Origin: [Limnothrix rosea] IAM M-220
GTDB lineage: Bacteria > Cyanobacteriota > Cyanobacteriia > Cyanobacteriales > MRBY01
Direction: 5' to 3'
Length of the DNA: 64,000 bases
NCBI RefSeq assembly: GCF_001904615.1
Contig: NZ_MRBY01000004.1
Location: forward strand, 1 to 64,000
Each line of letters begins with the position of its first letter. The first letter of the stretch is position 1. Below the pieces are notes generated by a model, which was not told where the DNA came from, made no database searches, and worked only from the letters and a program-made list of their open reading frames with translations. A program made the position numbers and the translations under genes. Below are positions 6,344 to 19,763 of this stretch, in pieces.

Positions 6344-7444
6344 ATGGTCGGCTATCTCGTTTATCTCACTATCTCCGCAGCAACCTATGCGATTTTTTGT
6401 CTAGGTCTAAATCTTCAATGGGGCTTTACGGGACTCATCAATTTTGGTCACGTCGCGTTTATGACTATCGGTGCTTACGCCACTGTGTTGCTCGCGTCCC
6501 AAGGAATACCCCTAATCGTTGCACTACTTATCGGGATGGCGATCGCCGCGTTATTAGGTCTAATTATTGGTCTATCGACCTTGCGATTGCGGGAAGATTA
6601 TCTCTCGATTGTGACCATCGGCTTTTCGGAATTAATTCGTCTAGTTGCCCTGAACGAAGAATGGTTAACCCGTGGTGCTTTCGGTGTCCAGGGTTATCCG
6701 TTGCCATTGGGAGAATTTCGCCCGAACCAAGTCGGTAGGCTCTCGCTAATTTTCTGGCTGACGCTTGTCGCAATTTTTGCGGGTTGGCAACTGTGGCGCG
6801 GTATTCGCTGGCGTTGGAAAAAACAAAGAAAGCAAGGTGGCTCTGGTTTAGATGCGACCGTTTGGGGTGTGATTGGCGGCGGTATTATTCTCAGCTTGTT
6901 TATCAATGGTTGCGTTGCCCTACAAAATTACAACTACAAAGCCGGCTTAATGCTTCTGTCGGTGGTGGCATTGGCGTTAGTTTACGCAGGTTTAGAATAT
7001 CTCGTGCATTCCCCTTGGGGTCGTGTCCTGAAGGCGATTCGGGAAGATGAAGAAATTCCCCGTGCCCTCGGCAAAAATGTTTTTTGGTATAAGCTGCAAT
7101 CCTTTATGCTCGGTGGGGCGATCGCCGGGATGGCAGGCTCATTTTACGCATGGCAACTGACCAATGTTTACCCCTCTAGTTTTGAGCCACTGGTCACCTT
7201 TAACGCTTGGACAATCGTGGTTTTAGGCGGCGCTGGCACCAACCCCGGCACATTGATCGGCTCCCTCATTTTCTTTGCCTACGACTCCGTCACTCGCTTT
7301 GTTTTACCCCAACTGGATCTTGTGGATGATGCCCGCTTAGGAGCATTACGAATTATGGTGATCGGCTTGATTTTGATGGTGCTAATGGTGTGGCGACCCC
7401 AAGGACTGCTCGGCAATAAGGACGAATTGACCCTAGGTAAGTAA
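6344..7444 (+). CDS. natD: Branched-chain/neutral amino acid ABC transporter permease (LivM/NatD type)
   Basis: A 366-residue membrane permease of the LivM family. The signature LNLQWGFTGLINFGHVAFM lies near residues 20-40, and the cytoplasmic coupling region contains SPWGRVLKAIREDEEIPRAL. The C-terminal half has VLGGAGTNPGTLIGS. Cyanobacterial NatD is the membrane component of the N-I neutral amino acid transporter, whose genes are often scattered; none of the partners (natA, natB, natC, natE) is in this window. I chose ATG 6344 over a TTG 39 bases upstream because it starts the first membrane span. UrtC (urea) is a related alternative but fits the signature less well. Confidence 0.85.
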   Translation: MVGYLVYLTISAATYAIFCLGLNLQWGFTGLINFGHVAFMTIGAYATVLLASQGIPLIVALLIGMAIAALLGLIIGLSTLRLREDYLSIVTIGFSELIRLVALNEEWLTRGAFGVQGYPLPLGEFRPNQVGRLSLIFWLTLVAIFAGWQLWRGIRWRWKKQRKQGGSGLDATVWGVIGGGIILSLFINGCVALQNYNYKAGLMLLSVVALALVYAGLEYLVHSPWGRVLKAIREDEEIPRALGKNVFWYKLQSFMLGGAIAGMAGSFYAWQLTNVYPSSFEPLVTFNAWTIVVLGGAGTNPGTLIGSLIFFAYDSVTRFVLPQLDLVDDARLGALRIMVIGLILMVLMVWRPQGLLGNKDELTLGK

Positions 7445-15508: not shown

Positions 15509-15793
15509 ATGAACGTTTTCGGCATCGGCCTTCCAGAAATGGCGCTTATTTTTGTCATTGCCCTACTGGTATTTGGCCCCAAAAAGCTACCGGAGATTGG
15601 TCGTACCCTCGGTAAAACCCTTAAAAGTTTTCAGGATGCCTCCAATGAGTTTCAGGAAGAGTTTAAAAAAGAAGCTGACAAAATGGAAAAGACTGTTTCT
15701 ATGCAGGCTCGCCTAGAGGAAAGCGAAACGGAAAAGGCGGAGAAAGTTGAGGTGGAGGAGGTTAAGACTGAAACTTCTTCTACGGAAGCTTAG
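15509..15793 (+). CDS. tatA: Twin-arginine translocase subunit TatA/TatE/Hcf106 family
   Basis: A 94-residue protein with the TatA layout: short N-terminal membrane helix ([21 protein letters not shown]), the invariant [11 protein letters not shown] hinge, an amphipathic helix, and a highly charged Glu/Lys tail. It forms the pore-forming component of the Tat pathway in thylakoid and plasma membranes. TatA versus TatB cannot be separated safely by eye; cyanobacteria usually carry one of each class. TatC is not in the window. A HIP1 site followed by a T run lies 20 bases after the stop. Confidence 0.88.
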
Positions 15794-16011: not shown

Positions 16012-16728
16012 TTAATAGCGAATGGTCAAAGTCACCGAAGCATTTACGTTTTGCTCACCGCCTTCTACTGGTGTCACGGCTGTATCACTGGCCGTCATCG
16101 CAAAGCTTTCAGCACGAACTAAAGGCATTGGTGTTGCAGGCTGGCTACCATTGACCTGAATTTGAATGATCTCCTGGGAATTTAAGCCAAGGGATTCGAG
16201 GACAACTTCGGCTTGGGTTTTGGCATCTTGGGAGGCTTCTCCGAGGGCAATTTTCTCAGCGGCGGCGATCGCCTCATCAGTTGCCCGAAAGGAAATACCA
16301 TCAATGCGCGTTGCCCCCGCCTGAACCGCTTCATCCATGATGCTGCCTGCAGATTCTGTCGGCACTTCAAAACTGACGGTGTTGGTCGCGATATAGCCAA
16401 TTAAACGACGCTCATCACCACTCCAATCATATTGGGGCTGCAGATTAATGCCTGTGGTGGTCAATTTTTCGACATTTTTCCCCTTAAGAAATTCCACCAC
16501 CTGCTGGCTCCGGTTCGCCATCTCTGCCTGAACCTGTTCGGCGGTTTTGCCTTTGACTTCCACGCCTAAACGCACCTTGGATAAACTGGTGGCGATCGCC
16601 TCTTGTCCTTGCCCAGTGACGGTAATGGTTCGGAGTAATGTGGCCTGGTCGTCAGCAATTACACTAGTCGTACATCCCAAACAAATCAATCCTGTAAAGA
16701 TAGGCAACCAAAATTTTTTGCGGATCAT
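16012..16728 (-). CDS. SIMPL (DUF541) domain periplasmic protein
   Basis: A 238-residue exported protein. The N-terminus is a signal sequence with a possible lipobox (LICLGC, residues 14-19). The body shows the SIMPL/DUF541 pattern: ITVTGQGQEAIATSLSKVRLGV near residue 35, TTGINLQPQYDWSGDERRLIGY near 95-115, and a closing VNASVTLTIRY. Members (for example E. coli YggE) are periplasmic and linked to oxidative stress, but the mechanism is unknown. It is convergent with no operon partners; the next gene starts 188 bases away on the other strand. Confidence 0.85.
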   Translation of the reverse strand: MIRKKFWLPIFTGLICLGCTTSVIADDQATLLRTITVTGQGQEAIATSLSKVRLGVEVKGKTAEQVQAEMANRSQQVVEFLKGKNVEKLTTTGINLQPQYDWSGDERRLIGYIATNTVSFEVPTESAGSIMDEAVQAGATRIDGISFRATDEAIAAAEKIALGEASQDAKTQAEVVLESLGLNSQEIIQIQVNGSQPATPMPLVRAESFAMTASDTAVTPVEGGEQNVNASVTLTIRY

Positions 16729-16916: not shown

Positions 16917-17804
16917 ATGCCCTTTAGTGATGTTCGTGATTTTCAGATCGCGGTTTTATCTGGCTTTTTATTATTAGGTGTCTATACAAGAGATTGGACA
17001 TTACATTTAGATTGGGTCGCTTTTACAATGGCTGCCTGTGTGCTGACTCAATGGCTATTTAGTCTTTATTTTGCAACGCGAAATTCTCCTGAGGAGAAAA
17101 AACTAAAAATTAAACCTATTTTGATTTCTGGGTTACGCAGTTCTTTGATTACAGCTTTAGGTTTGTCGCTATTGCTCAGGACAAATCATATGGGTGTTTT
17201 GATACTGGCGGGTTGTTTGGCGATCGCCAGTAAATTTTTGCTCAAATACGAAAAAAAGCATTTCTTTAACCCCGCCAATTTTGGCATTATCAGCGTATTG
17301 CTCCTAACCAATGACGCATGGGTTTCACCGGGACAATGGGGCACTGATTGGTGGTATCTCATTTTATTCTTCTCTGCCGCTGGTCTAGTGCTAAACAAAG
17401 TCGGGCGTTGGGATACATCCATTGCCTTTCTTGCGAGTTATGGTGGCTTAGAAATTCTGCGAAACTTCTGGCTCGGCTGGACTTGGGATGTGGTGCTGTT
17501 GCAACTATCTAGTGGTTCTTTGTTACTTTTTGCCTTTTTTATGTTGACCGATCCGCGCTCGATTCCCAATGCGAAAAAAGGACGAATTTTCTGGGCAATT
17601 AGTATTGCTTTGCTCACCTTTATTTTACAAAATGGCGTTTATTCTTCTAGTGCAATTTTCTGGGCTTTATTTGCTTTAGCACCAAGCACAATTGTCATAG
17701 ACAAAATTTGGAAAGGGAAACGTTTCAACTGGCAAAAACCAGAGCCGAGTAATATCCAAACTGAGAATAATGATTTGTTTGTTCCAGCGATTAATTTAGC
17801 GTGA
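16917..17804 (+). CDS. RnfD/NqrB-like membrane protein (orphan)
   Basis: A 295-residue protein with about nine or ten membrane spans, resembling the NqrB/RnfD family through NPANFGIISVLLL near residue 120 and the segment LLLFAFFMLTDPRSIPN near 200, which corresponds to the FMxTDPxTSP signature of RnfD. In complete Rnf/Nqr complexes this subunit carries flavin and helps couple redox to ion transport. No other Rnf or Nqr subunit is nearby. The classical SGAT flavinylation motif was not seen. A strong Shine-Dalgarno (GGGAG) precedes ATG 16917. First of a three-gene cluster with a DUF2330 gene only 10 bases downstream. Confidence 0.75.
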   Translation: MPFSDVRDFQIAVLSGFLLLGVYTRDWTLHLDWVAFTMAACVLTQWLFSLYFATRNSPEEKKLKIKPILISGLRSSLITALGLSLLLRTNHMGVLILAGCLAIASKFLLKYEKKHFFNPANFGIISVLLLTNDAWVSPGQWGTDWWYLILFFSAAGLVLNKVGRWDTSIAFLASYGGLEILRNFWLGWTWDVVLLQLSSGSLLLFAFFMLTDPRSIPNAKKGRIFWAISIALLTFILQNGVYSSSAIFWALFALAPSTIVIDKIWKGKRFNWQKPEPSNIQTENNDLFVPAINLA

Positions 17805-17814
17805 GGAAAAGGTG

Positions 17815-19143
17815 ATGTTGTTGCGATATTTAAAGGGACTATTGATTAGTTTTATTGGTCTTTTATTACTCACTCAGCCAGCTTGGGCATTCTGCGGCTT
17901 TTATGTCGCGAAAGCGGATACCGAACTCTACAATCAAGCTTCCCAAGTCATTATTGCTCGGGACGGCGATCGCACCGTTGTAACCATGGCCAATGACTAT
18001 CAAGGTGATGTGGATGATTTTGCGATGGTTGTACCAGTGCCAGTGGTGCTAAAAGAAGACCAAGTCCATGTGGGTGAATCAAAAATTATCAAACGTCTCG
18101 ATGACTTTAGTGCGCCGCGTTTAGTGGAATATTTCGATAGTAATCCCTGCCAAGTGAATGCTTTTGATGATTTTGGCGGCGGCTGGCTCAGAAGAGAATC
18201 GATGAATGCACCGGTACCTGCCATGGCTTTAGAAAGTGCGGCAGATCTTGGGGTGACCATTGAGGAAGAATTTAGCGTTGGGGAATATGACATTCTCATT
18301 CTCAGTGCCAAAGAATCTGATGGTTTAGAGACTTGGCTTCGACAAAATGAGTACCAACTTCCCGATGGGGCGAGTGATCTTCTTAAGCCTTACATCCGCA
18401 CACAAATGAAATTTTTTGTGGCAAAGATGAATCTCGAAGAGTTTGATCGCACTGGCGTTAATGAGCTGCGTCCGCTCATGATGGCTTATGAGTCGCCGAA
18501 ATATATGCTGCCCATCCGATTGGGGATGATGAATGCAAATCAGGCGCAGGATCTACTGGTTTATATTTTGTCTCCGAAGGGTCAAGCGGAAATCACAAAT
18601 TACCGCACTGTTAAAATCCCGTCCAATGTGGAGGTGCCTGAGTTTGTGGAAGATGAGTTTGGTGATTTTTATACCACGATGTTCGAGAACGATTATCAAC
18701 GGCAGGGGCGTGATGATGTTTTTCTTGAATATGCATGGGATATGAGCACCTGTGATCCTTGTTCTGCACCGAATTTAACGAAGGAAGAATTGCAGTCGGC
18801 GGGGGTCTTTTGGGATAAGGATGCCTTTGTTCCTCAGGTTTTTATTACGCGGCTCCATGTGCGCTATACCCGCGATAAATTTCCGCAGGATTTGAAATTC
18901 CATGAAACGTCGAATCGTCAATCGTTCCAGGGTCGTTACGTGATTCGTCATCCTTTTCGCGATAAAGATGGGCTTACCTGTGATGCGGCAACGGAGTATT
19001 TAAGTCGTACTCGTCGTCGTCAGGAGGAGGAGGTGCATACTCTCGCGAAATTAACGGGTTGGGATAAGTCGGAAATTCGTCGTAAGGTTGATTTTGTTGA
19101 TGCGCCTCAAGCAACGGGTGATTGGTGGGATTCTATCTGGTAA
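17815..19143 (+). CDS. DUF2330 domain-containing exported protein
   Basis: A 442-residue exported protein. The signal peptide ends near WAFCGFYVA, and the mature part opens with the DUF2330 pattern AFCGFYVAKADTELYNQASQV and VTMANDYQGDVDDFAMVVPVP. Conserved Cys occur singly and as CDPC in the C-terminal half, suggesting disulfides. No catalytic motif is evident; function unknown. It begins 10 bases after the RnfD-like stop codon, with the Shine-Dalgarno GAGG overlapping that stop; a GTG three bases earlier is an alternative start. Close spacing argues for a joint role with the upstream membrane protein. Confidence 0.85.
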   Translation: MLLRYLKGLLISFIGLLLLTQPAWAFCGFYVAKADTELYNQASQVIIARDGDRTVVTMANDYQGDVDDFAMVVPVPVVLKEDQVHVGESKIIKRLDDFSAPRLVEYFDSNPCQVNAFDDFGGGWLRRESMNAPVPAMALESAADLGVTIEEEFSVGEYDILILSAKESDGLETWLRQNEYQLPDGASDLLKPYIRTQMKFFVAKMNLEEFDRTGVNELRPLMMAYESPKYMLPIRLGMMNANQAQDLLVYILSPKGQAEITNYRTVKIPSNVEVPEFVEDEFGDFYTTMFENDYQRQGRDDVFLEYAWDMSTCDPCSAPNLTKEELQSAGVFWDKDAFVPQVFITRLHVRYTRDKFPQDLKFHETSNRQSFQGRYVIRHPFRDKDGLTCDAATEYLSRTRRRQEEEVHTLAKLTGWDKSEIRRKVDFVDAPQATGDWWDSIW

Positions 19144-19292
19144 TTTTCGCTAACCAATGGGTGATGCTACATCCTTGATTTCTGAATGAAGTTGAGGATT
19201 TTTTCTTGGAAAAATAATCGGCGATCGCCTCTATTTTGTCTAGAGATAAATAGGGTTAAAGTTGGAACAGATTGAGAAACAGAGATTTTGCG

Positions 19293-19763
19293 ATGAGAGT
19301 TCTGAAAAGACGCGGCTTAGTTTATCGAGCGACTGAAATCTTACTGCCAATTACGATAATTGCCAAGGCTCTCCATCTAAATTATTTGATGGGACAAGTT
19401 TTGAATTTTGCCATTTGGCTTTATCAAAAATTTCTTTCTCCCCATAAAGGTTTTGTTTGTGCCTACCGGAAACTTTATGGTGACGCGAGCTGTTCTGAAT
19501 ATTTTCGGCGGGCGATCGCCCATGGGGGTTTAGCTGATGCGATTCCATTGTTTCAACGACGATTATTTGACTGTAAGCAGGCGAAACAGCAGTTACTTTA
19601 TAGCTCTCTTTCCTATCAGATGATGGCTAATAACAAACGCCGCCGAAAACAACGAGGTCTGGATTTTTGTGATTGTGGTGATCTCGATTTTGATGGTACG
19701 CCTGATTGTTTGGAAGGTTGTGATTGTGATTTTTGCGATTGTGATTTTTGTGACTGTGGTTAG
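19293..19763 (+). CDS. YidD-like protein with a cysteine/aspartate-rich C-terminal tail
   Basis: A 156-residue protein. Residues about 38-100 match the YidD membrane-insertion factor family: AIWLYQKFLSPHKGF, then CSEYFRRAIAHGG and a Cys in RRLFDCKQA. Ordinary YidD proteins are about 70-90 residues. Here a long N-terminal helix precedes the core and the tail (125-156) has nine Cys in 31 residues, alternating with Asp, plus DLDFDGTPD that resembles a calcium-binding loop. ATG 19293 is preferred to a TTG 21 bases upstream. It follows the DUF2330 gene by 149 bases on the same strand. Confidence 0.75.
   Translation: MRVLKRRGLVYRATEILLPITIIAKALHLNYLMGQVLNFAIWLYQKFLSPHKGFVCAYRKLYGDASCSEYFRRAIAHGGLADAIPLFQRRLFDCKQAKQQLLYSSLSYQMMANNKRRRKQRGLDFCDCGDLDFDGTPDCLEGCDCDFCDCDFCDCG

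Follow-up and report, generated by a model that had tools for sequence, protein, structure and literature searches.

We analyzed a pair of neighboring genes in a 64,000-nt stretch of [Limnothrix rosea] IAM M-220 (GCF_001904615.1, contig NZ_MRBY01000004.1, positions 1–64,000; hereafter the window), of which one encodes an RnfD/NqrB-like integral membrane protein and the other an exported protein of the DUF2330 family. The two genes are paired far beyond chance, and we see about equal chances for and against their products forming a two-component transmembrane electron conduit that holds a non-covalent flavin and uses DUF2330 as the exported redox partner, and whose reaction, cofactor, direction, donor and substrate we infer. 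The RnfD-like stop codon is separated from the DUF2330 start by only 7 bases (GTG) or 10 bases (next ATG), with GAGGAAAAGG immediately 5′. The original prediction had described both genes, together with a Cys-tailed YidD-like gene, as lying on one strand, and indeed all three open reading frames lie on the + strand (Table 1) and match Pfam or NCBIfam families. It had also stated that the other Rnf subunits are missing; a search of the whole host genome (4.07 Mb in 92 contigs, completeness rated 100%, one DUF2330 copy) bore this out for RnfA/E-NqrD/E (PF02508), FMN_bind (PF04205) and ApbE (PF02424), all of which are absent, with RnfB and RnfC not searched separately.

To assess co-occurrence of the two families, we analyzed 149 genomes from the order to which the host belongs. 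DUF2330 is present in 91 and PF03116, the family of the RnfD-like protein, in 89 of these genomes; 86 of the 94 carriers have both, and in 82 of the 94 the two genes are direct neighbors on one strand (Fisher p = 5e-31). Most of the exceptions can be accounted for: in two cases the RnfD-like protein found without DUF2330 is a long FG-GAP/UnbV fusion, and one case lies at a contig end. Tandem arrays of up to four DUF2330 copies behind a single RnfD-like gene were also seen (L072:4733-10576 and similar cyanobacterial loci).

The pairing extends to other phyla. When a diverse RnfD-like alignment was used to scan 85,000 species genomes, 498 relatives were confirmed, and the best 80 of these 498 were examined. 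They come from about ten phyla, including Pseudomonadota, Nitrospirota, Acidobacteriota, Myxococcota, Spirochaetota (Leptospiraceae), Verrucomicrobiota, Bdellovibrionota and others, and one of them is a cyanobacterium. For 77 of the 80, DUF2330 is the immediate neighbor of the RnfD-like gene and shares its strand; the remaining three comprise two loci truncated by contig ends and one genuine exception (L100). The RnfD-like gene comes first in 49 and DUF2330 in 22 of the 71 pairs in which gene order was measured. Furthermore, the distances within the two families correlate in a mirror-tree comparison (r = 0.70, against 0.11 for the best of 2000 shuffles), although this value contains shared species history and hence serves as supporting evidence only. 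Around the pair no conserved third gene was found, the recurrent neighbors, e.g. those of the ruvB/tolB region, representing lineage-bound synteny, and viral contigs contained no relatives. The neighborhoods across cyanobacteria and other phyla strongly support the claim that the RnfD-like protein and an exported DUF2330 make up an envelope module that is conserved and self-contained. A Deinococcus plasmid (L032:8055-9158) carries a DUF2330 that is 47% identical to that of the window and annotated in two pieces; the stretch around it contains no RnfD-like gene.

At six loci, belonging to Nitrospira, Myxococcaceae and one deltaproteobacterium, both genes occupy a single open frame. The Nitrospira frames contain a perfect AAGGAGGT and an internal ATG before DUF2330, so that a separate DUF2330 protein can also be made, which weakens the claim that the one-frame loci are clean fusions. 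Three Nitrospira loci, L107, L131 and L144 (~6850-6890), have a stop-free frame from the RnfD-like into the DUF2330 part with the ribosome-binding site retained, and dual products are possible there. For the frame of Nitrospira defluvii, a two-domain chain of 759 amino acids (aa) from a relative rather than the window's own proteins, AlphaFold2 returned a predicted template modeling score (pTM) of 0.82. According to the pTM formula, two domains of such length that are each well folded yet not placed relative to one another would give ~0.55–0.58; the value of 0.82 thus indicates, indirectly, that the relative placement of the RnfD-like and DUF2330 domains is confidently predicted in this relative.

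The RnfD-like protein contains PF03116 as its sole Pfam domain. Its score against the NCBIfam rnfD model is 44 bits, under the cut-off of 207, yet homology spans the entire ten-helix RnfD fold, with profile matches to the PDB RnfD chains 8ahx, 9eri and 7zc6. The model of a one-frame relative matches Azotobacter RnfD (8rbq_D) with Z 24.5 over 254 residues and NqrB with Z ~22; RnfD/NqrB matches as a whole lie at Z 21–24.5, followed by the ammonium transporter AmtB and urea transporters at Z ~10–12. In solved complexes, riboflavin is held through hydrogen bonds by Asn124 and Asp248 of Clostridium tetanomorphum RnfD, by Asn123 and Asp249 of Acetobacterium woodii RnfD, and by Asn200, Asp346, Thr162 and Phe342 of NqrB, and the A. 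woodii variants N123A and D249A are inactive, the strains being unable to grow (PMC9588780, PMC11889175, PMC10643135). The A. woodii study described RnfD as involved in electron transfer only, with no ion (sodium) transport; ion transport via NqrB has been proposed by others. In an alignment of 65 diverse RnfD-like relatives, Asn118, Phe208 and Asp212 of the window protein are each invariant (65/65), Asn118 and Asp212 being the counterparts of the riboflavin-binding Asn and Asp that characterize RnfD/NqrB. The motif for flavin mononucleotide (FMN) attachment was found in none of the 65 (0/65), and all of them have lost the five-helix linker on which the FMN-bearing Thr resides, the distance from the NP to the DP motif being ~93–98 residues compared with 169 in E. 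coli RsxD. ApbE occurs in 1 of the 149 genomes of the order, and this genome has no DUF2330. The invariant riboflavin residues, the missing linker in 65/65 relatives and the single ApbE in 149 genomes together indicate, at the level of sequence, that the inner riboflavin site is retained and the outer covalent FMN site is lost.

The DUF2330 protein is a clear member of its family (240.3 bits, Pfam gathering cut-off 24.7), and its residues were compared across 63 sequences. Three cyanobacterial DUF2330 proteins that are not paired (L055–L057) have lost both Cys113 and Cys390 while retaining Cys28 and CDPC. This joint loss argues that Cys113 and Cys390 probably form a structural disulfide, and it suggests that Cys28 and CDPC make up a separate functional center, perhaps together with His349. 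A c-type heme was ruled out, since CxxCH is missing and Ala or Ser follows CDPC in 63/63 sequences. The distant members of Pfam DUF2330, unlike the window protein, have no CDPC, mostly carry a C-terminal membrane anchor and, at the loci examined, have no RnfD-like neighbor. The AlphaFold2 model of the window protein (m0339fdebf259) contains a variable disordered loop at residues 118–146. Its closest fold is that of baculovirus P35 (VIA Z 11.2, rmsd 4.5, 220 aligned), but the TM-scores are low at 0.29/0.42. A Foldseek comparison matched P35 as well (E 6.5e-5), without a sequence match; among viral models the only significant matches were three P35/P49 proteins, and among PDB entries no sequence relative rose above noise. 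If its predicted fold is indeed that of the insect-virus caspase inhibitors P35/P49, DUF2330 may be a bacterial relative of interest. We found no mention of DUF2330 or PF10092 in the open-access literature searched.

From these observations a possible course of events can be drawn. Within the inner membrane half, the RnfD-like protein would bind riboflavin non-covalently, and it would move electrons outward from a cytoplasmic or membrane donor. DUF2330 would cap the opened outer flavin pocket, its Cys28/CDPC center taking or giving electrons either as a dithiol/disulfide or as a Cys3-His metal site, and would then act on an envelope substrate. The redox role considered in the original prediction is in keeping with a riboflavin site that is kept and with cysteines that do not vary, the reaction itself staying putative. 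Several points weigh against an electron conduit. At one of the 80 best loci (L100) the RnfD-like gene lies away from DUF2330, and in four cyanobacterial genomes, all of one family, the two genes are both present yet not adjacent. CDPC is kept in three cyanobacterial DUF2330 proteins from genomes without an RnfD-like match. Since a ribosome-binding site still precedes DUF2330 at the one-frame loci, a fusion protein is no more than possible there. Ammonium and urea transporters share the fold of the RnfD-like protein.

The RnfD/NqrB fold is related to that of Amt and urea transporters, with AmtB and urea transporters following RnfD/NqrB among the structural matches, and the covalent flavin site is lost. 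This could mean that no electrons are transferred and that the RnfD-like protein works as a channel or transporter for a solute or ion, with the fold of ammonium and urea transporters, while DUF2330 binds, gates or protects on the periplasmic side. We consider this unlikely, as RnfD and NqrB are far closer in structure, the invariant polar residues correspond exactly to the riboflavin binders, the gate residue Phe208 is kept, and a partner with three invariant cysteines would be unexpected for a channel. A comparably small chance is given to DUF2330 being a metal handler with Cys28, Cys314, Cys317 and His349 as ligands, to which the RnfD-like protein would supply electrons for metal reduction or release at the membrane. 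The three Cys and the single His that never vary would suit such a site, and DUF2330 has weak structural matches to the zinc-binding proteins PA4063 and ZrgA, but their Z of 4–4.7 is below the level that is meaningful alone and no conserved metal gene lies nearby. Still much less probable is DUF2330 as a P35-like protease inhibitor for which the RnfD-like protein is merely the anchor. The fold match and the exclusively P35/P49 viral hits would agree with it, as would the loop 118–146 and the N-terminal Cys, which are reminiscent of P35; however, no sequence similarity between the two families was found, the TM-scores are low, a shared fold proves no function, and a mere anchor would give no reason for the riboflavin-site residues to be invariant.

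The three genes had also been proposed to form a redox or assembly module in which YidD takes part. The pair with its exported DUF2330 stands, whereas YidD as a third member was rejected. Presence of a YidD-like gene is independent of DUF2330 among the 149 genomes (p = 0.59), and besides the window there is a single case of YidD at no more than 20 kb from the pair, a fragment encoded on the other strand. Furthermore, a terminator-like hairpin, which by itself is no evidence of function, lies between DUF2330 and YidD, and a canonical yidD is present elsewhere in the host genome (G000:C35:32596-32796). A role in assembly or membrane-protein insertion is hence unsupported; the shared strand and tight spacing in the window speak for an envelope assembly module of all three proteins, yet the missing linkage, statistical independence, hairpin and canonical yidD largely refute it, leaving it the least probable of the explanations considered here. 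The YidD protein of the window is divergent and has a Cys/Asp-rich tail, and in some other cyanobacteria alignments reach into this tail.

Among known systems, the Nqr/Rnf-like two-subunit systems (Meheust et al. 2021, PMC8238504; structural follow-up PMC10979944) are closest to the pair. They likewise combine one NqrB/RnfD-like subunit lacking the flavinylation Thr with an exported partner, and outward electron transfer was proposed for them (PMC8238504). However, their membrane subunit has a C-terminal NAD-binding domain (PF00175) in the cytosol and their partner is a flavinylated FMN_bind protein, whereas the 295 aa of the window protein include no PF00175 and the genome has neither FMN_bind nor ApbE. 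We found a member of this two-subunit family on a Mesorhizobium plasmid, adjoining ApbE. With RnfD/NqrB of Rnf and Na+-NQR the window protein shares the ten-helix fold and the riboflavin-site residues, but it differs in lacking the covalent FMN site, in its sub-cut-off rnfD score and in that other subunits were not found. No earlier description of an RnfD-like/DUF2330 pair was found in the open-access literature searched. It is tempting, if somewhat less probable than the conduit as such, to regard the pair as an undescribed two-protein redox system of about ten phyla, namely an ApbE-independent riboflavin conduit that combines the RnfD fold with an exported Cys28/CDPC redox terminal of P35-like fold.

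A further parallel is offered by UnbU/UnbV of the enediyne polyketide synthase cassette, where an orphan RnfD-like protein without FMN loop lies beside, or is fused to, FG-GAP/UnbV, again in distant phyla. The window pair differs from it by its DUF2330 partner, by its separate clade and by the location of UnbU in a biosynthetic gene cluster. Indeed, the DUF2330-linked RnfD-like proteins form a clade separate from the other loop-less orphans (98/98 support; the placement of E. coli RsxD is unsure). FG-GAP/UnbV partners of loop-less RnfD-like proteins were found in Streptomyces enediyne-type clusters, in Serratia and in a cyanobacterium, and in Metabacillus the gene for an RnfD-like protein without FMN loop overlaps by 4 bases that for an anchored AhpC/TSA redoxin (CxxC). 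In a broader reading of that kind, orphan RnfD-like proteins as a group would serve as a general electron module of the membrane, with exported partners that can be exchanged (DUF2330, redoxin, UnbV). The Metabacillus overlap, on plasmid pB218 (L035:5189-6576), is another possible thiol-redox pair. Two cyanobacterial fusions of 950–1014 aa (L058:2902-5751 and L060:2756-5797, both on the − strand) comprise an RnfD-like part, an extra membrane helix and FG-GAP/UnbV-ASPIC, i.e. UnbU and UnbV within one chain. In another cyanobacterium (L061:4819-8741), UnbU-like and UnbV-like genes are adjacent and one more gene accompanies them on their strand, resembling part of the actinobacterial enediyne cassette, and a Streptomyces UnbU/RnfD-like protein (L081:3746-4882) ends in a long Cys-rich repeat tail. 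A functional study of UnbU/UnbV was not found in the open-access literature searched.

Upstream of the pair, the window contains a TatA/E gene and, on the opposite strand, a gene for an exported SIMPL (DUF541) protein (15509-15793 and 16012-16728). An Rfam scan of the region gave no match.

Table 1. Features of the RnfD-like/DUF2330 locus, in window coordinates.
Feature	Position	Strand	Basis
RnfD/NqrB-like integral membrane protein, 295 aa	16917..17804	+	PF03116 2.9e-14, PDB RnfD profile matches
Thr79 codon, Ser/Thr in 65/65; likely equivalent to riboflavin-binding Thr162 of NqrB	17151..17153	+	motif position, not superposition; PMC10643135
NPA motif, Asn118 in 65/65; equivalent to C. tetanomorphum Asn124 and A. 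woodii Asn123	17268..17276	+	profile mapping
FMLTD, Phe208 to Asp212	17538..17552	+	Asp212 equivalent to Asp248 (C. tetanomorphum), Asp249 (A. woodii) and NqrB Asp346; Phe208 to NqrB Phe342
Spacer with Shine-Dalgarno-like GAGGAAAAGG, overlapping GTG/ATG starts	17805..17814	+	sequence
Exported DUF2330 protein, 443 aa; ATG at 17815 as alternative start	17812..19143	+	PF10092 3e-71; AlphaFold2 predicted local distance difference test (pLDDT) 87.5
Signal peptide, residues 1–26, putative cleavage between QPAWA and FCGF	17812..17889	+	sequence; model helix 2–19
Cys28, residue 2 of the predicted mature protein, 63/63	17893..17895	+	conservation
Cys113, 62/63	18148..18150	+	conservation; lost jointly with Cys390 in L055–L057
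CDPC motif (Cys314, Cys317), 63/63, followed by Ala/Ser	18751..18762	+	conservation
His349, sole invariant His of DUF2330, 63/63	18856..18858	+	conservation
Cys390, 62/63	18979..18981	+	conservation
Terminator-like hairpin, 12 pairs, then T run; closes the two-gene unit	19171..19199	+	consensus scan
Divergent YidD, 163 aa, Cys-rich tail; outside the module	19272..19763	+	TIGR00278 3.3e-19

In summary, RnfD/NqrB proteins were previously known as part of large redox pumps. If the proposed conduit holds true, a free-standing RnfD-like protein that has kept only its riboflavin site and works with a single exported partner would come close to the simplest way of wiring a membrane with flavin. DUF2330, a family of unknown function, thereby gains a testable role and is linked by analogy to UnbU/UnbV of the enediyne cassette. 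Cyanobacteria were noted to be strikingly poor in flavinylation systems (PMC8238504); if true, the RnfD-like/DUF2330 pair would provide extracytosolic flavin-based electron transfer in these organisms.

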